DNA of 64,000 nucleotides from Paracoccaceae bacterium (GCA_030758115.1 JANREX010000085.1:1655-65654), one strand, 5' to 3'. Numbered from the stretch's first letter, positions 12,195 through 35,545 are shown. Program-made: numbers and translations. The notes: generated from the sequence alone by a model not told the origin.

Positions 12195-14231
12195 TCAGTT
12201 CCCCCGGCCATCCTTGTCGTCGGTCAGGTAGTCGGCGCGGGTTCTGACCTTGCGGGTCCTGTCGTCATGCGGGTCGAACCCCTGTTTGACGATTTCCTCG
12301 ACGCGGCAATTCTCGCACATGGTCAGCACGTTCAGGCGTTGCGCACCGTCCTCGCCCCGGAACATCCAGTGATCGGCCAGCCGGGACTGGATCCGCTCGA
12401 TGCCGGACCGCGTGGCGAAGGCCGTGCCGCAGATGGTGCAGCAAAATGGCGGCTCTTCGTGCAGGATGCGGCGCGGCGTGTCCCAGGCGGCGAAATCCAG
12501 TTGCGGGGTCAGGGTGATCGCGTTCTCCGGGCAGGTGGCCGCGCAGAGGCCGCATTGCACGCAGGCGCTTTCGGTAAAGCGCAACATGGGGGTTTCGGGA
12601 TTGTCCAGCAGGGCACCGGCCGGGCAGACCCCGGTGCAGGCCTGGCAGAGGGTGCAGGCGTCCGTATCGACGGTGACGCTGCCGAAGGGCGCGCCTTCGG
12701 CCAAGGGCAGCGTGGCGGCGGGCACGGGTGCGGCGCGGTTCATCTCGGCAAAGGCCATGACCAGAAGGCCGCGCTTGTCTGCGGGCGGCAGAAAGCCCGA
12801 TGGGCTTGCGGGGGCAGGTGCGACGGCCAGATCGGCCAGTGCCGCCTCCAGCGCGTCGGGATCATCCGTTTCGATCAGGGTGACCGGGCCATGGCCCATC
12901 GCATCGGCCACGGACCCCACAAGCGCGATGCTGGCGTGCAACCCGTCAAGGTCATGCTTGGGTTTGGCGCGCCCAAGGATGGCGACTGCGCCCGCCCCAT
13001 AGGCGAAGGCCGCTGCCATCACCTCGGGCCCGGCTTGCGTGATCTCGTTCAGGCCAAGCGGGATCACATGGGCGGGCAGGCCACGGCCATAGCGGCCCGC
13101 CGCGTTGATCAGCGGCTCGCCGTGATCGGCGTCATGCAACAGGATCGCGGGCGCGGTCTTTGCCCCGGCGGCATACCAGGCCTTGAGGGCCGCGCGCAGG
13201 CGCGCGGTCACGGTGGTGACATCGGGCAGCGCATAGGATGCGGCCCCGGTCGGGCAGGCGGCGGCGCATTGCCCGCAGCCCGCGCAGATCGCGGGGTCGA
13301 TCTGCACAGAGTCACCGTCGGGCGTGATCGCCCCGGTCGGACACAGCGACAGGCAGCGGGTGCATCCGGTGATGCCATTGCGCGAATGGGCGCAGAGATC
13401 CGCCAGGAAATCGATGAACACGGGCTTGTCGAATTGCCCGACCATCTGGCCTGCCTTCGCGATCACCTCGGCCACGGCGCGGGCATCCCTGGGATCGGCC
13501 CGCAGATAGCCGGGGCGCAGCTCATGGGCGGCGAACAGCGGCTGTCCGCCGGTCAGGTCCACGATCAGATCCGCGCGCGAGGTCGCGCCGTCACGCGCCG
13601 CGCCGAACCGCAGCGTTTCGCGGGACGAGGGGGCTGGCACGGCATAGGCATCGACCGCCAGCGTGAATTGCCCCAGATGGCCGGTCGCGGTGCGGATCCG
13701 GCCCTGCAGGACCGGAAAGCGCGTCTGGCGCGGCGGGGACAGTTTTGCGCCGGGTTGCAGCAGCACGGTGATGTCCAGCTGGTCCGCCAGGCTTGCTGCC
13801 GCATCGATGGCCACCTCGTCCCGTCCCAGGATCAGCGCCACGCCGTTGCTTTCAAGCGTGGTGACGCCGAAGGGTGCGGGCGCGACGGCGGCGGCGGCGA
13901 TCATCGCGGCCATCTTGGGCCCGCTGGTCTTGGCCTCGGCGGTCCAGCCCGCGGTTTCACGGATATTGGCGAAAGACAGCGCCAGATCGGGGGCCTCATC
14001 GGCGGCGATCTCCGAGAAAAGCGGGGCCTCCTGCGTGCAGGCCACGGTCACCGGCAGGCCCTTTGCAAGGGCGGCGCGGAAATGATCCAGATTGGCGCGG
14101 CACAACTGGGTGACGGATGCATCCCCCCCGCACCCGGCCCGGTTCAGCGCGCCCTCGTCCGGCGCCATCGTGCCTTCGCAGGTGCAGGTCAGGACTGTCC
14201 GGTTGGAATTCGCATTGGTTGTCATGGTCAT
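12195..14231 (-). CDS. Multi-cluster 4Fe-4S binding protein, formate dehydrogenase-associated
   Basis: Several CxxCxxCxxxC motifs: CTRCLSLCPTGA, CAGCGQCAAACP, CTLCQACTGVCP, CVQCGLCAATCP; extra C-terminal CCTICG...CENC. Coding part of the 812-aa ORF starts at MTMTTNANSN (14231). Confidence 0.88.
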   Translation of the reverse strand: MTMTTNANSNRTVLTCTCEGTMAPDEGALNRAGCGGDASVTQLCRANLDHFRAALAKGLPVTVACTQEAPLFSEIAADEAPDLALSFANIRETAGWTAEAKTSGPKMAAMIAAAAVAPAPFGVTTLESNGVALILGRDEVAIDAAASLADQLDITVLLQPGAKLSPPRQTRFPVLQGRIRTATGHLGQFTLAVDAYAVPAPSSRETLRFGAARDGATSRADLIVDLTGGQPLFAAHELRPGYLRADPRDARAVAEVIAKAGQMVGQFDKPVFIDFLADLCAHSRNGITGCTRCLSLCPTGAITPDGDSVQIDPAICAGCGQCAAACPTGAASYALPDVTTVTARLRAALKAWYAAGAKTAPAILLHDADHGEPLINAAGRYGRGLPAHVIPLGLNEITQAGPEVMAAAFAYGAGAVAILGRAKPKHDLDGLHASIALVGSVADAMGHGPVTLIETDDPDALEAALADLAVAPAPASPSGFLPPADKRGLLVMAFAEMNRAAPVPAATLPLAEGAPFGSVTVDTDACTLCQACTGVCPAGALLDNPETPMLRFTESACVQCGLCAATCPENAITLTPQLDFAAWDTPRRILHEEPPFCCTICGTAFATRSGIERIQSRLADHWMFRGEDGAQRLNVLTMCENCRVEEIVKQGFDPHDDRTRKVRTRADYLTDDKDGRGN

Positions 14232-14311
14232 GAGCACCCGGCCTGATCTATAACTCTGTTGCGTGGTTCTGACTGCTCTTGCAGTTGGTGGCAAGTGCGT
14301 TAGAAATGGAT

Positions 14312-14319
14312 TGTATACG
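14312..14319. promoter_or_regulatory. Candidate operator TGTATACG (near-palindrome TTGTATACGA)
   Basis: Lies in the divergent intergenic region between 14231 (-) and 14339 (+); resembles the TGTATACA palindrome at 17933. Confidence 0.35.
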
Positions 14320-14338
14320 ATTTTGACAAGGATAGGCC

Positions 14339-15070
14339 GTGGTGCTCGACAATCATTCAGCGCCCCGTTCCCTAGTGCTGCCACCGCCCTACACGGCGCA
14401 TTGGCTGGCGCAGGGGGACACCCAGAGGCAAGCATGCCTGCTGGCGCCCGATCACGGGGCAGGCACGCTTGTCTGGCATTGCAGCTTGCCGCAGGCGGGG
14501 CGGCGCGCCACCTCTGCCGGACGGTTCGATTTCGCGGTGGTCCTTGAGCCGGATGTGCCATTGGCCGAGGCGCGCAAGGCCTTCGTGCTGGGGATGCTGG
14601 CGCTGGGCGATGCGCTGGCCGCGCATTGCCCACCCGAGCGCGCGGTCACTTTCGGATGGCCCTCGGAATTGCGGCTTGATGCAGGTCGCCTTGGTGGCAT
14701 GCAGCTTTATCTGCCCGAGGGCGTGGCCGAGGATGAGGTGCCTGACTGGATGGTGCTGGGGGTCGAGCTGATCGCGGATCGTGATCACCTGACCGATCCC
14801 GGCAGCAAGCCCGGTTCGGTCTCTCTGAAGGAAGAGGATTTCACCGATCCGCCCGCGATCCTTGAAAGCTTTGCGTCCTACCTGATGCTGAACTTCGACC
14901 GCATGGCCCATGGCGGATATCCGGCGCTGGCGGCGCGCTACGGCGAAAAGATCGCATCCGGCGGAACGCTGGCCGAGGCGGTGGATGTGCAGGATGCCGT
15001 GGGACTCGCGCGCCTCGGGGATGCGCTGCAATCCGCGCCCTGGCGCGACGACACCGGACCAAGGCTGTGA
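14339..15070 (+). CDS. Biotin/lipoate--protein ligase-like protein (BPL/LplA-like, DUF4444-type C-terminus)
   Basis: 243 aa; 'FVLGMLALGDALAAHCPPERAVTFGWPSELRLDAGRLGGMQLYLPEGVAEDEVPDWMVLGVEL'. Confidence 0.75.
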   Translation: MVLDNHSAPRSLVLPPPYTAHWLAQGDTQRQACLLAPDHGAGTLVWHCSLPQAGRRATSAGRFDFAVVLEPDVPLAEARKAFVLGMLALGDALAAHCPPERAVTFGWPSELRLDAGRLGGMQLYLPEGVAEDEVPDWMVLGVELIADRDHLTDPGSKPGSVSLKEEDFTDPPAILESFASYLMLNFDRMAHGGYPALAARYGEKIASGGTLAEAVDVQDAVGLARLGDALQSAPWRDDTGPRL

Positions 15071-15636
15071 TCCGCCTGCCGCGCACGATCCGGCTTGACC
15101 GCTCGGACGAGGTGGTCTTCGCACAGGCCGCAACGCCTGGCGAATGGGCGGTTCCGGGGACATTCCTGTTCGCGGGCCGCGATCCCGACACGCTGGGCCG
15201 CAAGGAACAGATCGCCTTTCGTTCGGGCCTGCTGGGGGTGGAAAGCTTTGGCTGGTCCACGCTGGTCACAGTGACTTTCGTGCGCCCGTCCGACCGTGAC
15301 GCGGCGGTCGAAATGCTGGCCCGCCAGTTGATCGACAAGCTGGGCGCGCCCGATATGGCCGCAGCCCGTCCCGCCGCCGAAGAAGAGCTGACCCTGGCCG
15401 AGGATCTGTGCCGTGGTCATGCCGAAGGCACATTGATCGCCTTGCACCGCACCCAGGCCGATGGTGGTATAAGAGAGCAGTTTCGCACCTTGAAACCGCG
15501 CGACACCACGGCGTTCTCGGCCGGGTACCTGAGCGGGCATGACAAGGCGTTTCATGTCGTGGAAACCGACGAGGATGACGCGGAGGCCGAGCATTTCGAT
15601 CTGGCCTCGTTCATGGAAGAGAAGAGCACGTCATGA
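15067..15636 (+). CDS. DUF6505-like protein
   Basis: 189 aa; MIRLPRTIRLDRSDEVVFAQAATPGEWAVPGTFLF; GTGA overlap with the upstream gene. Confidence 0.7.
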   Translation: MIRLPRTIRLDRSDEVVFAQAATPGEWAVPGTFLFAGRDPDTLGRKEQIAFRSGLLGVESFGWSTLVTVTFVRPSDRDAAVEMLARQLIDKLGAPDMAAARPAAEEELTLAEDLCRGHAEGTLIALHRTQADGGIREQFRTLKPRDTTAFSAGYLSGHDKAFHVVETDEDDAEAEHFDLASFMEEKSTS

Positions 15637-16652
15637 GGGAATTCTGGGTCGCCTCCGGCCATCACCTGACACGCCTGGACGCCACCGGGCGCATGCAGGT
15701 CACGGATGAACTGATCCTGGCCTGGCTTGCCCGGCCCGAGATCGTGCCCCCCGCCGAAGCCTGTGCCGCCGAACGCGCCTTGCATGCCCGTCTGATGGCC
15801 ACGCCGCGCGCGCAGGTGTCGGTGATGGAGCGGGCCAATATCAAGGACCCGGATGCCCGCGAAAACTGGGAGTTCCTGCTGACCCTGCGCGACCGGCTTC
15901 TTGCGGCCGGGTCGATCGAGGCGGGATACCTTGGGCTGGTGCGTGACCGGGTGCGTCTGCCGCATCTGTTCTATGATCAGCTGGTGCAACTGATCCTGCG
16001 CAACGCGCTGGAGGGATGCGACGACGTGCATGTCCTGCGCGCCGCCGAGATGTTCTTTCGCCCGCAACGCGCCTTTCTGAATGACGGTGCGCTGATGCTG
16101 GCGGATGACGAGCTGGTGGCCGAACTGGAAGGCGAGATTCACAGCAACCCGCTGTTTGCCATGATGAACGGCGGCGTCGACTCGCTGGATGTGTTGAACG
16201 ACGAGAATGCCTGGACCTATTGGAGCAGGTCGGACGCGCATACGATGGTTCTGCCCTTCGGGTCGGACCCCAAGGCGCGCGCCGGTTTCGCCCGCGCCGT
16301 GGAGCGTTTCGTGCATCACCTGCTGGGCCAGCCTGTCAGCGTGACCCCGATGCTGAGCGCGAATGATGTCGATCTGCAATGGTATGTCGGCCTTGATCAG
16401 GCGGGCACCGAGGTGGGCAATGCCCTGTGGAATGGCCAGACGCCCACCGCGGCGCTGGTGGGGCTTTTCGCGCTGACCTTCGAGACATCCGATGGCGTTC
16501 TGCCGCAGATCGGATCGCAGCCCGTGTATCTTTTTGTCGGGTTGGATGGCAGCAATGTCATCCGCTTCAAGCCGCAGAACCTGGTGACAGGCCTGCCGCT
16601 GCTGGGTGACGGGATGGCCGGGGCCATACCCGCCGCGATGGGGCGCGCCTGA
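15633..16652 (+). CDS. DUF6352-like protein
   Basis: 339 aa; MREFWVASGHHLTRLDATGRMQVTDELILAWLARPEI; ATGA overlap with the upstream gene. Confidence 0.7.
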   Translation: MREFWVASGHHLTRLDATGRMQVTDELILAWLARPEIVPPAEACAAERALHARLMATPRAQVSVMERANIKDPDARENWEFLLTLRDRLLAAGSIEAGYLGLVRDRVRLPHLFYDQLVQLILRNALEGCDDVHVLRAAEMFFRPQRAFLNDGALMLADDELVAELEGEIHSNPLFAMMNGGVDSLDVLNDENAWTYWSRSDAHTMVLPFGSDPKARAGFARAVERFVHHLLGQPVSVTPMLSANDVDLQWYVGLDQAGTEVGNALWNGQTPTAALVGLFALTFETSDGVLPQIGSQPVYLFVGLDGSNVIRFKPQNLVTGLPLLGDGMAGAIPAAMGRA

Positions 16653-17188
16653 TGCCACGGGAGGTTTTGCGCCTTGCGGTCCTGGGCGTGTCGCACCCGC
16701 CCGCGAATGTCTGGGCCAGGCGCGTCGTGCGGCCTGCGGCCCTGATGGCCGAGATCCCGCCGCTGGAGCGCGGCGCGCTGATGACCGAACAGGGCGAGGT
16801 GCGCACCTATTACATGGGCGATCATGCGGTTGTCCTGCATTCGGGCGAAACCTCGCATTACATCGACAACCTGCGGGCCGCGCGCCCCTCGCTCTGGGTG
16901 TCTTGCGACGGTGATACGGTGCGGCTGGTCACGGCCGATCCCTATGAGGGCGAGGCGATGGCCAGTGATCCCGAACGCATCGTCGAGGCGCTGGCCATGC
17001 CGCCTGCCGTGGCCGCGCGGATCGAGGCGTTCATCGCCGCGCATCACGTGGAAGAGGTCTTTCACAAGCGCAAGCGCGTGCCGGTGAACATGGATCATGA
17101 TCCGCGTGCAAAACGGATCCTCACGGATGGCGAAAAATGGGTGCAATCGCGCGGCAAGGCCGGGCTGCCACCCAAGGGGGGAGAATGA
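16652..17188 (+). CDS. DUF3305-like protein
   Basis: 178 aa; 'VLGVSHPPANVWARRVVRPAALMAEIPPLE'; the next gene is DUF3306-like, a common pairing. Confidence 0.78.
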   Translation: MPREVLRLAVLGVSHPPANVWARRVVRPAALMAEIPPLERGALMTEQGEVRTYYMGDHAVVLHSGETSHYIDNLRAARPSLWVSCDGDTVRLVTADPYEGEAMASDPERIVEALAMPPAVAARIEAFIAAHHVEEVFHKRKRVPVNMDHDPRAKRILTDGEKWVQSRGKAGLPPKGGE

Positions 17189-17847
17189 CGGATCGCGAGG
17201 AGCGTGAGGGCGGCTTCCTGCGCAACTGGTCACGCAGGAAGCTGGCGGCGAAACGGGAAACCCCGGTTGTGGCCGAGGAGCCTGCAAAGCCTGCCGAACT
17301 GCCCGATCCGATCCAGGCGGAAGAGCCTGTCGATACGCAGGCCATCATCGATTCGCTTCCCTCGCTCGACGAGATCACCGCGGGTTTCGACATGAAGCCT
17401 TTCATGGCCAAGGGCGTTCCGGCCCATCTCAAGAATGCGGCGCTGCGCAAGATGTGGCTGGTCAACCCTGCGGTGCGCGATTACGCGGATCCTGCGGTGG
17501 ACTATGCCTGGGACTGGAACGCACCGGGCGGCGTGCCCGGCGGTGGCGGTGTCCTTTCGGGGCAAAGCGTTGAAAAGATGGTGAAGGATCTGATAGGAGA
17601 ACGGACCGAGCCGGAGTATGCTGACGCTGAAGCGACTGTCCCGGAGGAGACAGTGCGACCGCGCAAGGTCGCTCAGGTCACATCGGCCGAAGAGACACTG
17701 GATCCGGTCGCGCCGCAGCGTGATGAGGACAGCGACTCGCCAGATCCCGCGGTTGCCGAGAATCCCGTGACAGAGGATGAATCACCCCGGCAGGACCGCG
17801 TGGTTCTGGCGTCACAGCGACGGCACGGCGGTGCTGTTCCAGAGTGA
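17185..17847 (+). CDS. DUF3306-like protein
   Basis: MTDREEREGGFLRNWSRRKLAAK... 'PAHLKNAALRKMWLVNPAVRDYADPAVDYAWDWN'; ATG at 17185. Confidence 0.82.
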   Translation: MTDREEREGGFLRNWSRRKLAAKRETPVVAEEPAKPAELPDPIQAEEPVDTQAIIDSLPSLDEITAGFDMKPFMAKGVPAHLKNAALRKMWLVNPAVRDYADPAVDYAWDWNAPGGVPGGGGVLSGQSVEKMVKDLIGERTEPEYADAEATVPEETVRPRKVAQVTSAEETLDPVAPQRDEDSDSPDPAVAENPVTEDESPRQDRVVLASQRRHGGAVPE

Positions 17848-17932
17848 CACGTTGTTGGCAAAGCTAAGAAAAATCGACATCCAAACCTATAAATCCGATG
17901 TCACAAATTGTTGCCAAGCGTTTTGAAAACCG

Positions 17933-17953
17933 TGTATACAATATGGGTATACC
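17933..17953. promoter_or_regulatory. Paired palindromes TGTATACA (17933-17940) and GGTATACC (17946-17953)
   Basis: Two perfect 8-bp palindromes, centres 13 bp apart, ~50-70 bp upstream of the TorD-like gene. Confidence 0.5.
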
Positions 17954-18004
17954 GTAGAGCGCGAAACCTACATCGACATCGTTAGACCAGAGGTTGATAC
18001 CCTG

Positions 18005-18658
18005 ATGACAGCCAGCACAGCCCAGGCTGCGCCAGCCAGACCAGAGCACGAAGTGCTGAGGTCCCAGCAATGGGGTCTTCTGGCATCCTTGCTCGTTGCG
18101 GCGCCCGATCGGGACACGCTGGACCTGTTGGCCGGTTTGACAGGTGACGAGACGGCCCTCGGCCAAGCGTATGCGGTGCTTGCCAGAACGGCGGCAGAGG
18201 CCGATGCCGAGGACGTCGCGCGAGAGTTTTTCGAGCTTTTCGTCGGGGTCGGGCGCGGCGAGCTGCTGCCCTTTGCCTCTTTCTACATCACGGGATTCCT
18301 GAACGAGCGCCCGTTGGCCGATTTGCGCCACGACCTGCAGTTGATGGGCGTGGAGCGCGCCGCCGGGCGGTTCGAGCCCGAGGATCACATCGCCAGCCTG
18401 TCCGAGATCATGGCCGGGCTTGCCGTGGGCGACTTCGATGCCAGCGTGCTGGGTTGCGGCGCCGCCGGAGAAGCGGGTTTCTTCGCGCGCCATCTTGCCC
18501 CCTGGGTGGGGCAGTTCTTCGACGATCTGGCCGTGGCCCCCAGCGCGCGTTTCTATCGCGCGGTGGCAGAGGTCGGCCGGATTTTCACGGATATCGAAAT
18601 GCGGGCGTTCGAGCTTGAGGCGGCAGCGCATCGCGGTTCGGGCGGACGGACGGTTTGA
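18005..18658 (+). CDS. TorD/DmsD-family molecular chaperone for a molybdoenzyme
   Basis: 217 aa; 'FFELFVGVGRGELLPFASFYITGFLNERPLADLRHDLQLMG' and 'PEDHIASLSEIMAGL', TorD family motifs. Confidence 0.9.
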   Translation: MTASTAQAAPARPEHEVLRSQQWGLLASLLVAAPDRDTLDLLAGLTGDETALGQAYAVLARTAAEADAEDVAREFFELFVGVGRGELLPFASFYITGFLNERPLADLRHDLQLMGVERAAGRFEPEDHIASLSEIMAGLAVGDFDASVLGCGAAGEAGFFARHLAPWVGQFFDDLAVAPSARFYRAVAEVGRIFTDIEMRAFELEAAAHRGSGGRTV

Positions 18659-18734
18659 GATTTTGACACGGCAGAAGACATACCAGGCAGGGCACCAGAG
18701 CCTGCTGGCACAGGACGAACCCAGGGAGGATGAC

Positions 18735-18944
18735 ATGGCTGAAAGCATCAAGAAAGAAAAAGGCATAGGGCGGCGCGGGTTCTTTGGCGCAGTTGCTGCC
18801 GCTGCGACGACCAGTGTTGTCGCGGGTGGCGCGCAGCCTGTCTTTGCAGAGGAAACGGGCGATGAGCGGACCAAGGCGCGGTACAAGGAGACCGAGCATG
18901 TTCAGGCCTTCTACCGCACCAACCGTTATTACAAGGGAGCATAA
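18735..18944 (+). CDS. Small Tat-signal protein of the formate dehydrogenase operon
   Basis: 69 aa; MAESIKKEKGIGRRGFFGAVAAAATTSVVAGGAQPVFA; GRRGFFG Tat motif; 3 nt before fdhA. Confidence 0.85.
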   Translation: MAESIKKEKGIGRRGFFGAVAAAATTSVVAGGAQPVFAEETGDERTKARYKETEHVQAFYRTNRYYKGA

Positions 18945-18947
18945 GCC

Positions 18948-21908
18948 ATGCTGGTCAAACGCAGATCCACGGATGCCAACCGCAGCGGCCTGGCGGCCTT
19001 TGCGCAAAGCGTGTCCGCAAAGCCGGTCGATCGCCGCAGCTTTCTGAGAGCCTCGGGGCTTGCCGTGGGTGGCCTGGCCGCCTTTGGCGCCATCGGTGCC
19101 TCGACGGTGCGCCGCGCCGAAGCGGGCAATACCGATTTCAGCCAGCCGATCGAGGTGAAGACCAACATCTGTACCCATTGCTCGGTCGGTTGCACGGTCA
19201 AGGCCGAAGTGCAGAACGGTGTCTGGGTCGGTCAGGAGCCGGCGTGGAACAGCCCGATCAACCGCGGGACCCATTGCGCCAAGGGCGCATCGGTGCGCGA
19301 ACTGGTGCATGGTGACCGTCGCCTGAAATACCCCATGAAGAAAGAGAACGGCCAGTGGGTGCGCATCTCCTGGGAGCAGGCGATCGACGAAATCGGCGAC
19401 AAGATGCTGGACATCCGCGAGAAGAACGGCGCGGACAGCGCCTATCTGCTGGGGTCGGCCAAGTTCTCGAACGAAGGGGCGTATCTGTTCCGCAAGTTCG
19501 CGGCCTTCTGGGGCACCAACAACGTCGACCACCAGGCGCGTATCTGCCATTCGACGACCGTGGCAGGTGTTGCGAACACCTGGGGCTACGGCGCGATGAC
19601 CAACAGCTACAATGACATCCGCAACGCCAAGACCATCATTTTCATGGGGTCGAACGCGGCAGAGGCGCATCCGGTGTCGCTGCAGCACATCCTGACCGGC
19701 AAGGAAACCAACCGCGCCAATGTCATCGTGATCGACCCGCGTTTCACGCGGACCGCCGCGCATGCCACGGATTACATCCGCATGCGTCCGGGCACGGATA
19801 TCGCCATCATCTGGGGTATCATGTGGCATATCTTCGAGAATGGCTGGCAGGATCAGGATTACATCGACCAGCGTGTCTGGGGCATGGATCAGGTCCGCGA
19901 GGAAGTGAAGAAATACTCGCCCGACGTGGTCGAGCGGATCACCGGCATTCCCGAGGCAGAGCTGAAGCGCGTCGCGCAGACCTTCGCCACGCAGCGCCCC
20001 TCGACCTTCATCTGGTGCATGGGCGGCACGCAGCACACCGTGGGTACGGCCAACGTCCGCACCTATTGCAACCTGCTGCTGGCGACCGGCAACGTCGGTT
20101 CCGACGGCACCGGGGCCAACATCTTCCGCGGCCATTGCAACGTGCAGGGTGCCACGGACTTCGGTCTCGATATCGGGTCGCTGCCTTGCTACTACGGCCT
20201 GTCCGAAGGTGGCTGGAAGCATTGGTCCCGCGTCTGGGGCGTGCCCTACGATTATTTCCAGTCGCGCTTCGACGAAGTGCCGGCCAAGGGCGGGCGCGAT
20301 GCGCGTGACCGCAAGGCCAACATGGAAATGGCGGGCATCCCGTCGACCCGCTGGTTCGATGCGACCACGCTTGATGCGGAAGACGTCGATCAGCGCGACA
20401 ACATCAAGGCGATGATCGTCTTCGGCCATGGCGGCAACACCGTGCCGCGGATGGGCGACAGCCTGAAGGGGATGAACGCGCTTGACCTTCTGGTCGTGGC
20501 CGACCCGCATCCCACCACTTTCGCGGCGCTGCATGACCGGACCGACAACACCTATCTGCTGCCGATCTCGACGCAGTTCGAGTGCAGCGGCAGCCGCACG
20601 GCGTCGAACCGTTCGGTCCAGTGGGGCGAAAAGGTTGTCGATCCGATCTTCGAAAGCGACAACGACTATGCGGTGATCTACCGCCTGGCGACCAAGCTTG
20701 GCTTTGCCGACCAGATGTTCAAGAACTACGAGATGGTTCAGGGCAAGTTCTCGATGGAACCGACCCCGGAATCGATCCTGCGTGAAATCAACAGCGGTGG
20801 CTGGTCGACCGGCTATACCGGACAAAGCCCCGAACGCCTCAAGGCGCATATGGCCAACCAGGACAAGTTCGACCTGGTGACGCTGCGCGCGCCTGCCGAT
20901 GCGGGCGAAGTGGCTGGCGATTACTACGGTCTGCCCTGGCCCTGCTGGGGTACGCCCGAGTTCAAGCATCCGGGGACGCATATCCTTTACAACCCGAACA
21001 TCCCCGTCAAGGACGGTGGCGGCGCGTTCCGCCCGCGCTTCGGTGTGGACCGCGAAGGCGAGACGCTGCTGGCCGAAGGCAGCTATCCGGTCGGATCCGA
21101 GATCCAGGACGGTTATCCGCAGTTCACCTATGGTGTGCTGCAGACGCTGGGCTGGGATGTGGACCTGACGCCGGACGAATTGGCCACGATCCAGCGCATC
21201 GGCGGCAACGATCCCGAAAAGATGGCGGCTGTCAGCTGGTCGACCGACCTGTCCGGCGGCATCCAGCGTGTCGCGATCGAGCATGGCTGCGTGCCCTTCG
21301 GCAACGGCAAGGCCCGCGCCGTGGCGTGGAACCTGCCCGACCCGATCCCGGTGCACCGCGAGCCGATCTATTCGCCGCGTCCCGACCTGGTGGCCGATTA
21401 TCCGACCCGCGACGACGGGCGTCAGTTCCGCGTGCCGAACATCGGCTTCTCGGTTCAGAAATCCGCGGTCGATCGCAAGCTGTCGGAAAGCTTCCCGATC
21501 GTTCTGACCTCCGGTCGTCTGGTCGAATACGAGGGTGGCGGCGAAGAGACCCGCTCGAACCCCTGGCTGGCCGAATTGCAGCAGGACATGTTCGTGGAAA
21601 TCAACCCGGCGGACGCGTCCGCCCGTGGGATCACCGATGGTGGCTGGGTTTGGGTCAACGGTCCCGAAAACGGTAGCAAGGCACGTGTGAAGGCCCTTGT
21701 GACCGAGCGTGTGGCACCGGGCGTGGCATTCATGCCGTTCCACTTTGCCGGGTGGTTCCAGGGTGTCGACCAGCGGGGCAACTATCCCGAGGGTACGGAC
21801 CCGATCGTTCTGGGTGAAAGCGTCAACGCGGTCACATCCTACGGATATGACCCTGTGACGGGTATGCATGAAGGCAAAGTGACCCTTTGCCAGATTTCTG
21901 CGGCATAA
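18948..21908 (+). CDS. fdhA: Formate dehydrogenase alpha (catalytic molybdopterin) subunit, Tat-exported, Cys-type
   Basis: 986 aa; RRSFLRASG Tat signal; CTHCSVGC 4Fe-4S motif; 'HQARICHSTTVAGVANTWGYGAMTNSYNDIRNA' active-site region. Confidence 0.95.
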   Translation: MLVKRRSTDANRSGLAAFAQSVSAKPVDRRSFLRASGLAVGGLAAFGAIGASTVRRAEAGNTDFSQPIEVKTNICTHCSVGCTVKAEVQNGVWVGQEPAWNSPINRGTHCAKGASVRELVHGDRRLKYPMKKENGQWVRISWEQAIDEIGDKMLDIREKNGADSAYLLGSAKFSNEGAYLFRKFAAFWGTNNVDHQARICHSTTVAGVANTWGYGAMTNSYNDIRNAKTIIFMGSNAAEAHPVSLQHILTGKETNRANVIVIDPRFTRTAAHATDYIRMRPGTDIAIIWGIMWHIFENGWQDQDYIDQRVWGMDQVREEVKKYSPDVVERITGIPEAELKRVAQTFATQRPSTFIWCMGGTQHTVGTANVRTYCNLLLATGNVGSDGTGANIFRGHCNVQGATDFGLDIGSLPCYYGLSEGGWKHWSRVWGVPYDYFQSRFDEVPAKGGRDARDRKANMEMAGIPSTRWFDATTLDAEDVDQRDNIKAMIVFGHGGNTVPRMGDSLKGMNALDLLVVADPHPTTFAALHDRTDNTYLLPISTQFECSGSRTASNRSVQWGEKVVDPIFESDNDYAVIYRLATKLGFADQMFKNYEMVQGKFSMEPTPESILREINSGGWSTGYTGQSPERLKAHMANQDKFDLVTLRAPADAGEVAGDYYGLPWPCWGTPEFKHPGTHILYNPNIPVKDGGGAFRPRFGVDREGETLLAEGSYPVGSEIQDGYPQFTYGVLQTLGWDVDLTPDELATIQRIGGNDPEKMAAVSWSTDLSGGIQRVAIEHGCVPFGNGKARAVAWNLPDPIPVHREPIYSPRPDLVADYPTRDDGRQFRVPNIGFSVQKSAVDRKLSESFPIVLTSGRLVEYEGGGEETRSNPWLAELQQDMFVEINPADASARGITDGGWVWVNGPENGSKARVKALVTERVAPGVAFMPFHFAGWFQGVDQRGNYPEGTDPIVLGESVNAVTSYGYDPVTGMHEGKVTLCQISAA

Positions 21909-21923
21909 GGGAGGACAATAAAC

Positions 21924-22520
21924 ATGGCACGTATGAAATTCCTGTGCGACGCAGACCGCTGCATCGAATGCAACGCTTGCGTAACCGCTTGCAAGAACGA
22001 GCATGAGGTTCCGTGGGGCATCAACCGCCGCCGCGTGGTGACCATCAATGATGGTCTGCCGGGCGAGCGTTCGGTCTCGATGGCCTGCATGCACTGCACC
22101 GATGCGCCCTGCGCGGCCGTCTGCCCGGTGGACTGCTTCTACACCACCGATGACGCCGTCGTCCTGCACTCCAAGGACACCTGCATCGGCTGCGGCTATT
22201 GCTTCTACGCCTGCCCCTTCGGCGCGCCGCAATATCCCAAGGTCGGCAACTTCGGCACCCGTGGCAAGATGGACAAGTGCACCTATTGCGCCGGTGGCCC
22301 CGAGGCCGACATGACCGAAGCCGAATATGTCAAATACGGCTCGAACCGTCTGGCGGAAGGCAAGCTGCCGCTCTGCGCCGAGATGTGCTCGACCAAGGCG
22401 CTTCTGGCGGGCGATGGCGATATCATCGCTGAAATCTACAAGGAACGCGTTGTGACGCGGGGCTACGGCTCTGGCGCATGGGGCTGGCGCACCGCTTATG
22501 GCGATGCAATCACTGTCTGA
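21924..22520 (+). CDS. Formate dehydrogenase beta (4Fe-4S ferredoxin) subunit
   Basis: 198 aa; CIECNACVTACKNEHEVPWGINRRRV, CTDAPCAAVCPVDC, CIGCGYCFYACPFGAPQ. Confidence 0.95.
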   Translation: MARMKFLCDADRCIECNACVTACKNEHEVPWGINRRRVVTINDGLPGERSVSMACMHCTDAPCAAVCPVDCFYTTDDAVVLHSKDTCIGCGYCFYACPFGAPQYPKVGNFGTRGKMDKCTYCAGGPEADMTEAEYVKYGSNRLAEGKLPLCAEMCSTKALLAGDGDIIAEIYKERVVTRGYGSGAWGWRTAYGDAITV

Positions 22521-22535
22521 GCGGGAGTAGGGACT

Positions 22536-23561
22536 ATGAACATGAAACATCTCGCACGGCGGATTGCCGCCCTCATGGCAGTTGTCACAGTGCTGGCACT
22601 TGGCGCTGTCACCGCACCGACCGGCGCGCAGGCGCAGCAGGTCAACCCGACCGCGCAATCGGTCACGGAAGACAAGCTTTTCCAGGCGCTGCAAGGCGAT
22701 CAGATGGTGGCCGGGCGTGTCTCGATCCCCGATGACCAGGCCAGCGGCCTGATCAAGCCGGGCAACAAGTCATGGGCCGGCACACATACCGGCACCGTGC
22801 GGTTCCTGTCGATCGCGGCCGTTGTCAGCGCCATCGTCGTTCTGGCGCTGTTCTACATGATCCGTGGCCGGATCATGGTGGATGGCAAGATGTCGGGCAT
22901 CCGCATCCTGCGCTTCACCGCCATCGAACGTTTTGCCCATTGGCTGATGGCGGGGTCCTTCATCGTGCTGGCGCTGACCGGTCTGAACCTTGTTCTGGGC
23001 CGCACAATGCTGCTGCCGCTGCTGGGCGAGGGGGCGTTCTCGACCCTGACCGTCTGGGGCAAGCTGGCGCATAACTACGTGGGGCCCGCCTTCATGCTGG
23101 GTCTGCTGCTGTCCTTCCTGGTCTGGGTCGCGCACAACCTGCCGAACAAGGTCGATGCCGAATGGATCGCGCAGGGTGGCGGTTTGCTGAAGAAGGGTGT
23201 TCATCCCCCGGCGAAGAAGTTCAATGCCGGGCAGAAGGTCATCTTCTGGTCCGTGACCATCGGAGGTGCGGCGCTGTCCTTCACCGGTGTCATGCTGCTG
23301 TTCCCGGCGATGGCCGGTACGCAGGCCGACTGGCAGCTGTTCCAGCTGATCCATGGGATCGTGGCGGCTATCCTGTCCTTCGTGATCATCGCCCATATCT
23401 ATATCGGGTCGATCGGCATGGAAGGCGCGTTCGACGCCATGGGCTCGGGCGAAGTGGATCTGAACTGGGCCAAGGAGCACCATTCCCTCTGGGTCGAGGA
23501 AGTTCAGGCGAAGTCGGGCGACAAGTCGATTTCGACCAAAGGCGCGCATCCCGCCGAATGA
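22536..23561 (+). CDS. Formate dehydrogenase gamma (membrane cytochrome b) subunit
   Basis: 341 aa; 'ILRFTAIERFAHWLMAGSFIVLALTGLNLVLG', 'IHGIVAAILSFVIIAHIYIGSIGMEGAFDAMGSGEVDLNWAKEHHSLW'. Confidence 0.95.
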   Translation: MNMKHLARRIAALMAVVTVLALGAVTAPTGAQAQQVNPTAQSVTEDKLFQALQGDQMVAGRVSIPDDQASGLIKPGNKSWAGTHTGTVRFLSIAAVVSAIVVLALFYMIRGRIMVDGKMSGIRILRFTAIERFAHWLMAGSFIVLALTGLNLVLGRTMLLPLLGEGAFSTLTVWGKLAHNYVGPAFMLGLLLSFLVWVAHNLPNKVDAEWIAQGGGLLKKGVHPPAKKFNAGQKVIFWSVTIGGAALSFTGVMLLFPAMAGTQADWQLFQLIHGIVAAILSFVIIAHIYIGSIGMEGAFDAMGSGEVDLNWAKEHHSLWVEEVQAKSGDKSISTKGAHPAE

Positions 23562-23570
23562 AGAACCATG

Positions 23571-23611
23571 GCGCGTCCGGTCTTCCGCAAAGGGGCCGGG
23601 CGCGCTTTTTT
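23571..23611 (+). terminator. Rho-independent terminator downstream of the fdh gamma subunit
   Basis: gcgcgtccgg tcttccgcaaagggg ccgggcgcgc tttttt: GC stem (one G-U) followed by a T run. Confidence 0.8.
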
Positions 23612-23652
23612 CGCTTGCTTGATGTCACAGGCGTTCACGTCAGAAAGACCGC

Positions 23653-24753
23653 ATGTCAATGGCCGATGATCCGATCCTGTTGGCGGCCCGCGAGGCGCTG
23701 TCAGGGCTGAACATGCCCGATGGAACGCCCTTTCTGGGGGCGTCGCAAGTGTCGGGGCCTGTCGTCGCGAATGGCCGTGTCAACGTCACGATCATGACCA
23801 ATGCGCAGGCCGCGGCCTCGCTTGCCGGGGTCCGGGCCGAGGCCGAGGCCGCGCTGCGCGGCATTCCCGGCGTCGACAGTGCCTTTGTCGTGCTGACCAA
23901 TGAACAAAGCGCCCCGCCGCGCCTGACCACGCCCAAGCCTGCCACGGCACCAAGCGCACCGCCCAAGGTGCTTGCCGGTGTGCGCCATGTGGTTGCGGTT
24001 GCCTCGGGCAAGGGTGGGGTCGGCAAATCCACGACTGCCGTGAACCTTGCGCTGGGTCTGCGCGCCAAGGGGCTGCGGGTCGGCATCCTGGATGCCGATA
24101 TCCACGGCCCCTCGATCCCGACGCTGCTGGCCCTGCACGGGCGGCCCCGGATGGGCAAGGATCGCCGCTTGCTGCCCATGCAATCCAACGGGCTACTGGC
24201 CATGTCGATGGGCATGATGGTGGATGCCGAAACGGCGATGGTCTGGCGCGGGCCGATGGTGATGTCCGCCATCACGCAGATGCTGGCCGATGTGGATTGG
24301 GGCGATCTGGACGTGCTGATCGTCGACATGCCGCCCGGCACTGGCGACGCGCAGCTTGCCATCGCCCAGGGCACCACGCTGGCGGGGGCCGTCATCGTGT
24401 CGACACCGCAGGACCTGGCGCTGGTCGATGCGCGGCGTGGCATCGCGATGTTCCGCAAGGTGGATGTACCGATCATCGGCCTGATCGAGAACATGGCCTA
24501 TTTCACCTGCACCGATTGCGGCAAGCAGCACGCCCTGTTCGGCACCGGCGGCGCCGAGGCCGAGGCGCGCCGCCTGGGCGTGCCCTTCCTGGGGGCGGTG
24601 CCGCTGACCATGGATCTGCGGGCCGCATCCGACAGCGGCCAACCCATTGTCGCCCGAGACCCGGACGGGATGCTGGGGCGGCTATATACCGAGATGGCCG
24701 AGGCGGTCTGGTCCAGTCTGACCGTGCCCGTGCCGGACGTTCTGAATAACTGA
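23653..24753 (+). CDS. Mrp/NBP35-family P-loop ATPase (Fe-S carrier)
   Basis: GKGGVGKSTTAVNLA deviant Walker A, 'CTDCGKQHALFGTGGAE' CxxC. Confidence 0.92.
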   Translation: MSMADDPILLAAREALSGLNMPDGTPFLGASQVSGPVVANGRVNVTIMTNAQAAASLAGVRAEAEAALRGIPGVDSAFVVLTNEQSAPPRLTTPKPATAPSAPPKVLAGVRHVVAVASGKGGVGKSTTAVNLALGLRAKGLRVGILDADIHGPSIPTLLALHGRPRMGKDRRLLPMQSNGLLAMSMGMMVDAETAMVWRGPMVMSAITQMLADVDWGDLDVLIVDMPPGTGDAQLAIAQGTTLAGAVIVSTPQDLALVDARRGIAMFRKVDVPIIGLIENMAYFTCTDCGKQHALFGTGGAEAEARRLGVPFLGAVPLTMDLRAASDSGQPIVARDPDGMLGRLYTEMAEAVWSSLTVPVPDVLNN

Positions 24754-24774
24754 AAACTGCAAGGAGCCTGACCG

Positions 24775-24930
24775 ATGAAATCCTTTCTTATCGCCTGCGT
24801 TGCCATCGTCTGTATCGCCATTGGTGCGGCCAGCGTGCTGGACGGCACCTTCCAGGTCGACAGCACCTCGGCCTTCACCACCGAAGGCGCGCGTGTTTCG
24901 CCCGGCGAGCAGAACCTGATCAGCAACTGA
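24775..24930 (+). CDS. Small exported/membrane-anchored peptide (51 aa)
   Basis: ATG 24775 with 'aaggag' RBS, stop TGA 24928-24930: MKSFLIACVAIVCIAIGAASVLDGTFQVDSTSAFTTEGARVSPGEQNLISN. Too short for the supplied ORF track. Confidence 0.65.
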   Translation: MKSFLIACVAIVCIAIGAASVLDGTFQVDSTSAFTTEGARVSPGEQNLISN

Positions 24931-24954
24931 TCGGGATAAGGGCAGGGGGCCGGA

Positions 24955-26169
24955 ATGCGTCTTGCAGCACTCTGCCTGGCAATTCTTGCGGGTGCCCTGC
25001 CCTTGTCCGCACAGGATCTGCGTGGCCATGGCGGCCCTGTGCGCGCCCTGGTCGCCGATCGCCAGGGGCAGGTGATTTCCGGCTCTTTCGACCGGCGCGC
25101 GATTGTCTGGAACGGGACGGTGGCCACCCAGGTCAGCGGCTTTCACGAAGGCGCGGTGACAGCCGTGCTGCGCTTGCCGGACGGGCGTTTCGCGACCGGC
25201 GGCCAGGATGGCCGCGTGATGATCTGGGGCGCGGGGCCGGAACCGCTTTATTCCGAAACATGGCATCCGTTGCCCGTGGGCGCCCTGGCCGTGCTGGGCG
25301 ATGGCATCGTCTCGGCCGGGTGGGACGGGCGCATCGCCCTGTGGTCCGGTACGGGCATGCCGCGCATGATCGATGGCCATCAGGGGCAGATCACCGGCCT
25401 TGTCACCTATCGTGACGGTTTTGCCAGCGTCGGGGCAGACTTGGTGCTCAAGCTCTGGGGCGCGACGGGCGAGATGATTGCCCAGGTCGCCCTGCCGGGG
25501 CCACCATCGGCGTTGGCGACGGATGGTGCGGCCCTGTTCCTGGCGTCGCCAGACGGGACGCTGCGGATCCTCGACGACAGCGGCACGCTGCGCGAACTGT
25601 CGGTGTCCGCGCGTCCCTTGCTGTCCGTGGCTGTCGGTGAAGGTCGCGTGGCCGTCGGCGGGACCACCGGGGAGGCCTGGCTTGTCGACCCGCAGACCCT
25701 TGCCATCGCACCGGTGATCGCGACAGGTCAAGGCCCGGTCTGGGCGCTGGCCATTGCCGACGGGGTGCTTCTGACGGGCGGGAATGACGGCCTGATCCGG
25801 CGCTGGTCGCTGGATGGCACGGCCCTTGGTGAAGGCGCTGATGTGTCCGATCCCACCTTGACCAACCCGCGCGGTGCGCAGGTGTTCCGCGCCTGCGCCG
25901 TCTGTCACACGCTGACCCCTGACGATGGCGCCCGTGCAGGCCCGACCCTGCACGGTGTCTTCGGGCGTCGCATCGCTTCGCTTCCGGGGTACAGCTACTC
26001 GGAGGCCCTCAAGGACATGGATATCGTCTGGACGGCGCAGACCATATCCGAGCTTTTCGAATTCGGTCCGCATGCCTATACTCCGGGCAGCCGCATGCCG
26101 GATCAGCGCGTGCCCAGCGAAGAAGATCGCCGCGCCCTGATCCAGTTCCTTGAAATCGCAACACGCTAG
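24955..26169 (+). CDS. WD40-repeat beta-propeller fused to C-terminal cytochrome c domain
   Basis: 404 aa; signal peptide, 'LRGHGGPVRALVADRQGQVISGSFDRRAIVWN' repeats; C-terminal 'GAQVFRACAVCHTLTPDDGARAGPTLHGVFGRR' (CxxCH) and 'GSRMPDQRVP'. Confidence 0.9.
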   Translation: MRLAALCLAILAGALPLSAQDLRGHGGPVRALVADRQGQVISGSFDRRAIVWNGTVATQVSGFHEGAVTAVLRLPDGRFATGGQDGRVMIWGAGPEPLYSETWHPLPVGALAVLGDGIVSAGWDGRIALWSGTGMPRMIDGHQGQITGLVTYRDGFASVGADLVLKLWGATGEMIAQVALPGPPSALATDGAALFLASPDGTLRILDDSGTLRELSVSARPLLSVAVGEGRVAVGGTTGEAWLVDPQTLAIAPVIATGQGPVWALAIADGVLLTGGNDGLIRRWSLDGTALGEGADVSDPTLTNPRGAQVFRACAVCHTLTPDDGARAGPTLHGVFGRRIASLPGYSYSEALKDMDIVWTAQTISELFEFGPHAYTPGSRMPDQRVPSEEDRRALIQFLEIATR

Positions 26170-26199
26170 GCGGCGGAGCCGCGTGCCGGAGAAAGCCCC

Positions 26200-26403
26200 A
26201 TGAGCGAAGATTTCAACATGTCCATGCGCAAGTTCCTCAAGCAGGTCGGCGTGACCTCGCAGCAGGCCATCGAAGAGGCCCTGCGCGCGGCCGGTTCCGA
26301 CAAGGTCGCTGGCCAAAGCTTCAAGGCAACGATGGTGCTGAAGATCGAGGGGCTTGATCTTGAGCATCGGATCGAGGGCACGATCAGCGACCGCTCGGAA
26401 TAA
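26200..26403 (+). CDS. DUF6494-like small protein
   Basis: 67 aa; MSEDFNMSMRKFLKQVGVTSQQAIEEALR. Confidence 0.75.
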   Translation: MSEDFNMSMRKFLKQVGVTSQQAIEEALRAAGSDKVAGQSFKATMVLKIEGLDLEHRIEGTISDRSE

Positions 26404-29262: not shown

Positions 29263-29263
29263 G

Positions 29264-31377: not shown

Positions 31378-33495
31378 CTACATTCCGAAACTGGCGTAGG
31401 GGATATAGCGTACCGGCGATCCCGGTCTGATCTGAGCCGCCTCATCGGGCAGTTCGACAAGGCCGCTGGCCCATGACAGGCCACTGATCCGCCCCGATCC
31501 CTCCGACGCAAAAACCTCTGCCTCGCCCTGTTCGTTCAGCCTGGCGCGCAGGTATTCGCGCCGACCGGCCTTCTTGTCCTTGGAAAAGGCCGCAGGGACC
31601 GTGAAGGCGGCGGGGGCGATCCAGCCCGATCCCGCCATGAGCGACAGGGCCGGGCGCGCGAAGATCAGCGCGCAGACAAGGGCCGCCACGGGATTTCCCG
31701 GCAATCCGAAGACCGGCACTCCCTGCCACATGGCCAAGGCCAGCGGGCGACCGGGCTTGACCGCAATCCGCCAACTGCTCAGGTTGCCTTCGGTCCGCAG
31801 CAGCCGCGAGACGTGATCCTCATCCCCGGCCGAGGCACCGCCAGAGGTCAGCACGACATCCGCCTGCGTGGCACCCTGCATCAAGGCCTGCCGGATCGCG
31901 TCGGTGTCATCCGGCATATGCCCAAGGTCCACCGGGGTATGGCCCCAACGCGCGGCCAGCGACAGCAGCATCGGGCGGTTCGCATCAAAGATCTGATGCG
32001 GCGCCGCCTGTGCCGCGGGATCGGTCAGCAGTTCGTCCCCGGTCGACAGCACGCCCACCCGCAATGGCTTGCGCACATCGACAGCGCCGATGCCAAGCGC
32101 CGTCAGCAGCGCCAGATCGGGCGCGCGCAGGATGTGACCGGCAGGCAGGGCCATCTGACCTTCCTGCATGTCCTCGCCCGCGCGGCGGGTATTGGCCCCT
32201 GGCTTGACGGGGCCATCGAAGACCAGTTGCAGTCCATCTGTCGCGCAATCCTCTTCCAGCACGACGGTATCCACCCCTGCGGGCAGGATCGCGCCTGTCA
32301 GGATGCGGATCGCATGGCCCTGTGGCACCGTTCCGGCAAAGGGTTGGCCTGCGGCTGCGCGCCCGCTGACAAGGGGCATGCGCTGCGGGCCGTTGCCGGT
32401 GGCCGCATGGGCAAAGCCATATCCGTCGACAGCCGCATTGGGGCGGGGCGGGTTCGCGCGGCGTGCCATGGCCGGGCCTGCCAGCACCCGGCCTGCAGCA
32501 TCATGCGTCCTGACCAGATCATGACCGGTGACCGGATGCAGCACATCGCGCAGCTTGGCGAGGGCCGCATCCACCGGCACCCAGGCGACCCCTTGCGGCA
32601 TGGCAAAGCAATCGTTGCGCAGGCGCGGCGGGGTCAGATGCGACGAAAGGGCCGCGCGCAAATGTGCCTGCTGGCCTGACCCCAGGATCCAGCCCTCGGT
32701 CAGGGCGGCCTCGGGCAGGGTCTGCCGGTCCAGCAGGACGGCGCGCATCTGCGGGTCCAGCCCAGCCAGGGCCCGGGCCAGCAGCCGCACCTGATGGGCG
32801 TCGGGTGGCAAGCCGGGGTCGGCGGCACTGGCCATGCGGACGGCATCCGCCAGCATCGAGGGATAGACTTCGGCCAGCGTGATCTGTGCGGGTGCCTCGA
32901 ACGGCCAGACAGACAGCTGGCCTGCAAAGCGGCGGCGCAGGCGGGCCAGCACGGGCAGGCCGGTCAGTGTCTGTGCGCCGACCGCGCCGGCCCCGGCCAG
33001 TTGCCAGACCGATTTCGGCGTGGCACCGGGGCTGGCGGCGGCGGTTTCGGTCGCCCTGTGTTGTGCCAGCGTGGGGGGCAGCTTTGGCTTGAGATGTGGC
33101 AACCCGTCGATCTGTATCTTGCGGCCATTACCCCAGAACGGCCCGTCACCGGGGAACAGCGCGTTCAGGCGGGCTGCGACATCGCGGTAATTGCTTTCAT
33201 TGCGGTCGGTATCGGCATGGTTGTCGGCCAGCCAATCCCACAGATGCAATGGCCCGCCCGCCACGGTTGCCGCGAAGCCCGCAGGATAGCCAAAGGCAAA
33301 ATCGGCCCCCAGCAAAAGCCTTTCACCGGCCGTCAGGGCCTCTTCGATCAGTGCGATCAGCCGCGCCTCGGCCTGCGCACGGGTGGGCAGGTTCTCGGGC
33401 GCCGCGCCATCCAGCGCCAGCCAGATACTGTCCTTGCCGCGCGCGGGTTTTCCCGCCGCCGACCAATCCAGTATGGCGACGCGGGAATAGGTCAA
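31378..33495 (-). CDS. MoeA-type molybdopterin molybdotransferase with a ~300-aa N-terminal extension domain
   Basis: 705 aa. C-terminal half MoeA-like ('RTHDAAGRVLAGPAMARRANPPRPNAAVDGYGFAH', 'LTSGGASAGDEDHVSRLLR', 'FGLPGNPVAALV'). N-terminal part (MTYSRVAILDWSAAGKPARGKDSIWLAL...LLLGADFAFGYPAGF) is unrelated to MoeA. Confidence 0.85.
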   Translation of the reverse strand: MTYSRVAILDWSAAGKPARGKDSIWLALDGAAPENLPTRAQAEARLIALIEEALTAGERLLLGADFAFGYPAGFAATVAGGPLHLWDWLADNHADTDRNESNYRDVAARLNALFPGDGPFWGNGRKIQIDGLPHLKPKLPPTLAQHRATETAAASPGATPKSVWQLAGAGAVGAQTLTGLPVLARLRRRFAGQLSVWPFEAPAQITLAEVYPSMLADAVRMASAADPGLPPDAHQVRLLARALAGLDPQMRAVLLDRQTLPEAALTEGWILGSGQQAHLRAALSSHLTPPRLRNDCFAMPQGVAWVPVDAALAKLRDVLHPVTGHDLVRTHDAAGRVLAGPAMARRANPPRPNAAVDGYGFAHAATGNGPQRMPLVSGRAAAGQPFAGTVPQGHAIRILTGAILPAGVDTVVLEEDCATDGLQLVFDGPVKPGANTRRAGEDMQEGQMALPAGHILRAPDLALLTALGIGAVDVRKPLRVGVLSTGDELLTDPAAQAAPHQIFDANRPMLLSLAARWGHTPVDLGHMPDDTDAIRQALMQGATQADVVLTSGGASAGDEDHVSRLLRTEGNLSSWRIAVKPGRPLALAMWQGVPVFGLPGNPVAALVCALIFARPALSLMAGSGWIAPAAFTVPAAFSKDKKAGRREYLRARLNEQGEAEVFASEGSGRISGLSWASGLVELPDEAAQIRPGSPVRYIPYASFGM

Positions 33496-33986
33496 AGCCC
33501 GACCTCGGCCAGGATGAAATCGGCAATGGCGGGCACGTCATCCAGGTCGAACAGCGGCACCCGCAGGTTTTGCGGCACGGTGTTCGACGCGACGGCCCGG
33601 ATCGTGGGATTGCTGTCCACCAGAAGCGGGCGGCCGGTTTCCCAGCGATGCGCCTCGATCTTGGGGTGCGGCTCGCGCTTGTAGCCTTCGATCAGGATCA
33701 GATCGACAGGCGCCATCAACGGCAGAAGGTCGGCCAGTGCGGGTTCCGGCTTGTCGCGCAATTCGGTCATCAGCGCCCAGCGGTTGGGCGAGGACAGCAT
33801 CACCTGATGGGCGCCCGCAGCCCTGTGGCGATAGCTGTCGCGCCCCGGCTGATCGACGTCCGTTTCGTGATGGGCATGCTTGAGCGTGGAAATGGTCAAG
33901 CCGCGCTTGCTGATCTCGGCGACAAGCCGTTCCATCAGCCCGGTCTTGCCTGCGTTCTTCCATCCGGTGACGCCGTAGACCCTCAT
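33492..33986 (-). CDS. mobB: Molybdopterin-guanine dinucleotide biosynthesis protein B
   Basis: MRVYGVTGWKNAGKTGLMERLVAEI P-loop; 'DLILIEGYKREPHPKIE'. Confidence 0.93.
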   Translation of the reverse strand: MRVYGVTGWKNAGKTGLMERLVAEISKRGLTISTLKHAHHETDVDQPGRDSYRHRAAGAHQVMLSSPNRWALMTELRDKPEPALADLLPLMAPVDLILIEGYKREPHPKIEAHRWETGRPLLVDSNPTIRAVASNTVPQNLRVPLFDLDDVPAIADFILAEVGL

Positions 33987-35486: not shown

Positions 35487-35545
35487 TGAGAGGCTTATAT
35501 AGTAGCACGGCTCGCAAGGGCGCAAGATGCGGAGAGGGCGGGAAC

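Follow-up and report, generated by a model that had tools for sequence, protein, structure and literature searches.

A conserved gene island around an FDH3-type formate dehydrogenase probably encodes a dedicated biogenesis system

Why does the operon of an exported formate dehydrogenase (FDH) sit within a long run of uncharacterised genes, and do these genes serve the enzyme? The question is raised by positions 12195-26403 of a 64,000-nt window (the whole stretch of DNA analysed here) from a Paracoccaceae bacterium (GCA_030758115.1 JANREX010000085.1:1655-65654), in which fdhABC, encoding an enzyme exported by the twin-arginine translocation (Tat) pathway, is flanked by numerous accessory genes. 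A preliminary description of the region proposed an undescribed maturation, Fe-S loading or electron-transfer module dedicated to this FDH subtype. Our results indicate that the island is probably a dedicated biogenesis system for an FDH3-type respiratory formate dehydrogenase, and that its most likely role is to load the cofactor and proofread in the cytoplasm, ahead of export by Tat. Every gene listed in the preliminary description was found to be present, based on a gene check and Pfam/NCBIfam profile matches, as follows (bit scores in parentheses).

12195..14231, minus: cytoplasmic protein with four [4Fe-4S] sites (the four-cluster protein), 678 amino acids (aa), extra C-terminal CxxC...CxxC (Pfam Fer4 matches)
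14339..15070, plus: biotin/lipoate-ligase-like (BPL-like) protein, probably non-catalytic (PF16917, BPL_LplA_LipB_2, 153.4 vs cut-off 27)
15067..15636, plus: DUF6505 protein (Pfam 200, over cut-off)
15633..16652, plus: DUF6352 protein (Pfam 150, over cut-off)
16652..17188, plus: DUF3305 protein, linked to MobA (Pfam 116, over cut-off)
17185..17847, plus: DUF3306 protein, no transmembrane (TM) segment (Pfam 60, over cut-off)
18005..18658, plus: TorD-family chaperone, FdhM-like (PF02613, Nitrate_red_del, 101.9 vs cut-off 22.2)
18735..18944, plus: Tat peptide, 69 aa, resembling TIGR02811, formate dehydrogenase Tat target (44.7, just under the cut-off of 48.45; position and RR motif fit)
18948..21908, plus: FdhA, Tat-exported catalytic subunit
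21924..22520, plus: FdhB, FDH3 beta, Fe-S subunit (NF038355, FDH3_beta, 338.9 vs cut-off 240)
22536..23561, plus: FdhC, cytochrome b gamma subunit (TIGR01583, formate-DH-gamm, 151.7 vs cut-off 115.85)
23653..24753, plus: Mrp/ApbC-type ATPase (ParA/NUBPL 329, over cut-off)
24775..24930, plus: 51-aa single-TM microprotein of an FDH3-linked family (no match in Pfam or NCBIfam)
24955..26169, plus: WD40-cytochrome c with signal peptide and CxxCH
26200..26403, plus: DUF6494 protein (Pfam 102, over cut-off)

The four-cluster gene (14231..12195) is encoded by the minus strand and is thus divergent from the remaining genes at 14339-26403, which are on the plus strand; a plus-strand placement was rejected because the frame there holds no such content. 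The FdhA translation carries a Tat-type signal (DRRSFLRASG) and a Cys at the active-site position in ARICHST, as judged from the sequence, and scored below the cut-off of the general Fdh-alpha equivalog TIGR01591 (466.5 vs 666.25).

Conserved gene content and order

With an FdhB alignment as the query, 80 loci were retrieved from GTDB genomes, and 51 of these loci were alphaproteobacterial with full flanks. Searches of these 51 loci with tblastn recovered the four-cluster protein, DUF6352, DUF3306, TorD and FdhABC in all of them, and the BPL-like protein, DUF6505 and DUF3305 in 50; the Tat peptide was found in 44 by tblastn and in 51 by its own profile. Mrp was present in just five and DUF6494 in none. 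The gene set is far beyond chance, because the same order (four-cluster protein, BPL-like protein, DUF6505, DUF6352, DUF3305, DUF3306, TorD, Tat peptide, FdhABC) recurs in 48 or 49 of the 51 loci. The same genes are found in annotated plasmid records of Microvirga and Sinorhizobium, and Sulfitobacter-type plasmids carry a divergent operon of four-cluster protein, DUF6494, Mrp, BPL-like protein and DUF6505. On a Halomonas plasmid (L008), the FdhA match is split into three pieces with shifting frames, possibly through sequencing error or decay.

Co-occurrence with FDH3

Each gene family was also searched in a single set of 142 alphaproteobacterial genomes, almost every one of which represents a different family; 20 of the genomes were scored as FDH3-positive (FDH3 beta over its cut-off) and 122 as FDH3-negative. 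The four-cluster protein, DUF3305 and DUF3306 each occurred in 20/20 genomes with FDH3 and 3/122 without (Fisher P = 1.6e-21; these tests ignore kinship, although the one-per-family-like sampling limits relatedness). Corresponding counts were 17/20 and 3/122 for DUF6352 (P = 3e-16), 11/20 and 2/122 for DUF6505 (P = 1.4e-9), and 14/20 and 2/122 for the 51-aa family (P = 5e-13). Matches to the BPL-like protein above 100 bits, a threshold set after the scores were seen, were likewise distributed 14/20 and 2/122. DUF3305, DUF3306, DUF6352, DUF6505 and DUF6494 were absent from all 14 control genomes, including Escherichia coli, and the core accessory set was not found in two genomes that carry only a distant FdhA-like enzyme (G086 and G016). 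In G028, the accessory genes are dispersed at separate chromosomal sites, yet are still present together with FDH3.

Two genomes counted as FDH3-negative (G071 and G127) carry FdhA on contigs that end there, and a third (G053) encodes only a distant four-cluster protein (33%). G125 is a real exception: its assembly is 98% complete and has no FDH3, yet encodes the four-cluster protein, FdhD, MobA, DUF3305 and DUF3306. Equal frequency of these genes in genomes lacking this FDH, named in the preliminary description as the observation that would count against a dedicated module, is ruled out for the four-cluster protein, DUF3305, DUF3306, DUF6352, DUF6505, the BPL-like subfamily and the 51-aa peptide.

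Cytoplasmic accessory proteins

A simple hydropathy scan showed no signal peptide or TM segment in the cytoplasmic island members, the DUF proteins among them. The four-cluster protein resembles HdrA and polyferredoxins; its 16 cluster cysteines are conserved (280/290/293/297, 316/319/322/326, 526/529/532/536 and 557/560/563/567), and it has a further CxxC...CxxC pair (Cys 598/601/639/642).

In biotin and lipoate ligases, the lysine of the KxxG motif is needed for catalysis. The BPL-like protein was aligned with the Staphylococcus aureus ligase; Lys occupies this position in 0/62 homologues, and no column exceeded 33% Lys. The nearest solved relative is 3bfm (E = 7e-37), a "biotin protein ligase-like protein of unknown function". 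The BPL-like protein is thus probably a non-catalytic pseudoenzyme. Its gene had been regarded as unexpected in an FDH operon, but it is a standard member, present in 50/51 loci and without the ligase lysine.

PDB sequence searches with DUF6352, DUF6505 and DUF3305 gave no convincing match. AlphaFold2 models of DUF6352 (predicted local distance difference test [pLDDT] 93, predicted template modelling score [pTM] 0.90) and DUF3305 (pLDDT 91, pTM 0.75) had no Foldseek match against PDB at E <= 0.001, and both may provisionally be new folds, as judged against PDB. The many invariant charged residues of DUF6352 suggest a binding or active site.

Link to molybdenum/tungsten cofactor synthesis

The island often adjoins MobB-MoeA-MobA-FdhD genes. 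Across FdhB-bearing loci (L001-L090), MobA was found in 27 and FdhD in 25. In the window, the neighbourhood continues beyond 26403 with a NAD-linked fds operon (26485-30949, minus) and then with cofactor genes (31378-35720, minus):

31378..33495, minus: open frame with MoeA from about residue 291
33492..34106, minus: open frame with MobB from about residue 41 (TIGR00176, 155 bits)
33983..34606, minus: MobA (TIGR02665, over cut-off)
34599..35720, minus: open frame with the FdhD sulfurtransferase from about residue 114 (145.7 bits for NF001943, cut-off 269; 137.7 for TIGR00129, cut-off 140.9)

The NCBIfam model NF011058 joins MobA and DUF3305 in one profile; its positions 8-205 are matched by the MobA of the window and positions 222-369 by the DUF3305 of the window, and all 49 aligned DUF3305 homologues matched it (49/49). 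In three genomes (G051, G125 and G229), DUF3305-DUF3306 is immediately preceded by MobA and FdhD. A search of 385 genomes for a natural MobA-DUF3305 fusion returned adjacent genes and no clean single-frame fusion. At loci L091 and L125 (G125), FdhD-MobA-DUF3305-DUF3306 is divergent from the four-cluster gene, with FDH3 absent and the genome 98% complete. E. coli TorD has been reported to interact with MobA (PMC10609526), and this interaction therefore provides a precedent for chaperone-to-cofactor handover.

Variable members of the island

The preliminary description had counted Mrp and DUF6494 as part of the module. Mrp has a NUBPL/ParA domain and a C-terminal CxxC (CTDC in the translation), and scored below the NCBIfam ApbC equivalog cut-off (314.8 vs 348); a second Mrp in the source genome is 46% identical to the island copy. 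In the Mrp tree, the window copy clusters with other FDH-linked copies from Paracoccaceae and one Mesorhizobium copy (100/98), and Sulfitobacter-type FDH-linked copies cluster with non-linked copies from Rhodobacterales. Because the FDH-linked copies sit at two separate tree positions, Mrp was apparently recruited to FDH islands on two or more occasions. Such repeated recruitment speaks for an Fe-S role that is real but replaceable. Mrp is a module member in some lineages but not generally (5/51 full-flank loci).

DUF6494 was rejected as an FDH-specific gene. It occurred in 15/20 genomes with FDH3 and 10/122 without, so that 10 of its 25 carriers lack FDH3, and several copies lie beside sdhCDAB, which suggests a wider role with respiratory Fe-S enzymes. 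In loci L094, L095 and L098, from genomes without FDH3, it directly adjoins sdhCDAB-type genes.

A profile seeded with the 51-aa peptide identified relatives of 40-80 aa in 42/51 full loci, with a single hydrophobic helix at the N terminus and a conserved Arg in the short tail. Their genes lie near fdhC or next after FdhD-MobA. The peptide encoded at 24775-24930 is the founding member of an unannotated, FDH3-linked family of predicted single-TM microproteins. Plasmids of Sulfitobacter, Sagittula and Loktanella encode look-alikes of 41-47 aa after fdhC that fall below the profile threshold. The WD40-cytochrome c is probably periplasmic, and several lineages encode it a short distance downstream of fdhC.

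Proposed role and alternative explanations

The claim of a module dedicated to this FDH subtype was thus supported by occurrence and gene order, with DUF6494 falling outside it and Mrp linked to it in part. Of the roles suggested for it, maturation fits the cytoplasmic proteins better than electron transfer does, for two reasons: these proteins show neither signal peptide nor TM segment, whereas the enzyme is exported by Tat, and the island is linked to MobA/FdhD.

In the scheme we propose, MobA would make the bis-pyranopterin guanine dinucleotide (bis-PGD) cofactor and FdhD would sulfurate it, after which DUF3305 and DUF3306 would pass it from MobA/FdhD to apo-FdhA, held on a scaffold of the BPL-like protein, DUF6505 and DUF6352. 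The four-cluster protein, plus Mrp where present, may supply Fe-S clusters or reducing power during FdhA-FdhB assembly. TorD would guard the Tat signal until loading is complete, and the Tat peptide would be exported together with the complex. Of the members placed at the membrane or in the periplasm, the 51-aa microprotein could act close to FdhC, either as an assembly factor or as a small subunit, and the WD40-cytochrome c could be an optional electron acceptor. A bolder version is tentative and, on balance, doubtful: a separate FDH3 assembly machine in which DUF3305/3306 shuttle from MobA to FdhA, the four-cluster protein donates Fe-S clusters or electrons, an inactive biotin-ligase fold forms the apo-enzyme scaffold with DUF6505 and DUF6352, the microprotein is an overlooked FDH3 subunit, and DUF6352 and DUF3305 are new folds.

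Several observations weigh against a biogenesis system dedicated to FDH3. DUF6505 was not found in 9/20 FDH3 genomes, and most of the accessory genes are missing from the plasmid loci that carry the FDH3 operons of Variovorax and Loktanella. The proteins retained in G125 may serve another molybdoenzyme. Moreover, the assignment of steps to individual proteins draws on linkage and sequence only.

One alternative is that the accessory set functions mainly in electron transfer, with the four-cluster protein acting in the cytoplasm and the WD40-cytochrome c taking formate electrons in the periplasm. The four conserved [4Fe-4S] sites, the similarity to HdrA and polyferredoxins, and the position of the cytochrome gene downstream of fdhC in several lineages are consistent with this. 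However, the four-cluster protein and FdhA are expected on opposite sides of the membrane, because the former has no signal peptide or TM segment and FdhA is Tat-exported. The four-cluster gene also sits beside FdhD-MobA in G125, where FDH3 is absent, and electron transfer would leave the BPL-like protein, DUF3305, DUF6352 and DUF6505 unexplained; we therefore consider this explanation unlikely. Supply of cofactor or sulfur to several molybdoenzymes, rather than to FDH3 alone, would account for DUF3305/3306 beside MobA and FdhD in G125 and G229, the former without FDH3. It is distinctly unlikely given the FDH3 association (20/20 vs 3/122) and the absence of the DUFs both from E. coli, a species with other molybdoenzymes, and from G016 and G086, two genomes with a different FdhA-like enzyme. 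Finally, an active ligase that modifies part of the FDH with lipoate, biotin or some other acyl group is highly improbable, since the clear BPL/LplA/LipB domain (153 bits) and solved homologue 3bfm are offset by the missing KxxG lysine and the lack of any Lys-rich column (>33%), and no lipoyl or biotinyl domain was found in the island.

Other features of the window

In the fds operon, FdsA (26485-29262, minus) adjoins the FDH3 island, and the NAD-linked FDH subunit at 29264-30949 (minus) is a fusion of NuoE-like and NuoF-like parts. TTGTATAC-like sites occur in both intergenic regions of the island, and of the four GTATAC sites that the 64-kb window contains, three (14313, 17934 and 17947) fall in these two regions; a conserved promoter operator was rejected, as GTATAC was present in 0/42 orthologous divergent regions. 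Elsewhere, the window encodes a DUF6782 putative metallopeptidase family protein (1186-1974, 281 bits) and contains an open frame of 457 aa with a curlin-repeat match (37289-38662).

Significance and comparison with known systems

FDH3 enzymes are related to a tungsten enzyme that tolerates oxygen and is now applied in CO2 reduction (PMC13397495). Maturation of the alpha subunit is reportedly the main bottleneck when a different complex FDH is produced heterologously (PMC13396061). The island offers a short, testable list of genes for co-expression, and highlights an unannotated family of microproteins and six uncharacterised protein families, of which two have confident models that match no solved fold.

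Among solved structures, FdhA is closest to Shewanella oneidensis FdhA (9vap_A; almost full-length match, 1249 bits), part of the Cys-W, oxygen-tolerant FdhAB (PDB 9VAP, PMC13397495). The window differs in its Tat peptide and 51-aa family, for which a PDB sequence search matched no chain. Deletion of the S. oneidensis Tat peptide gene SO4508 moderately lowered growth rate (PMC3623810).

To describe the module as undescribed was too strong, as links of TorD (FdhM), the Tat peptide and DUF3305/3306 to FDH are already published (PMC4464133, PMC4148689, PMC3623810). Bay et al. 2015 (PMC4464133) reported FdhGHI-linked DUF3305-DUF3306-fer4-Tat operons, which share with the island the DUF3305/DUF3306 pair, a ferredoxin, a Tat protein and a chaperone together with FDH. 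That survey names none of DUF6352, DUF6505 and DUF6494, all present in the island, and it lists DUF3305/3306 as putative membrane proteins, whereas the window copies show no TM segment. Among the open-access papers searched, DUF3305/3306 were discussed with FDH only in that study, and none named DUF6352, DUF6505 or DUF6494.

The island also resembles NarJ/TorD-family (redox enzyme maturation protein, REMP) maturation of Tat-exported molybdoenzymes, as with FdhM of Campylobacter jejuni, in having a TorD-family chaperone beside Tat-exported FdhABC, but it adds at least six further dedicated families. FdhM, a homologue of TorD, is essential for FDH in C. jejuni and acts on that enzyme specifically (PMC4148689). 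Genes of the FdhD/MobA bis-PGD pathway are shared by the neighbourhoods of the window island and many homologous islands, where DUF3305 appears as an extra partner, joined to MobA in NF011058.

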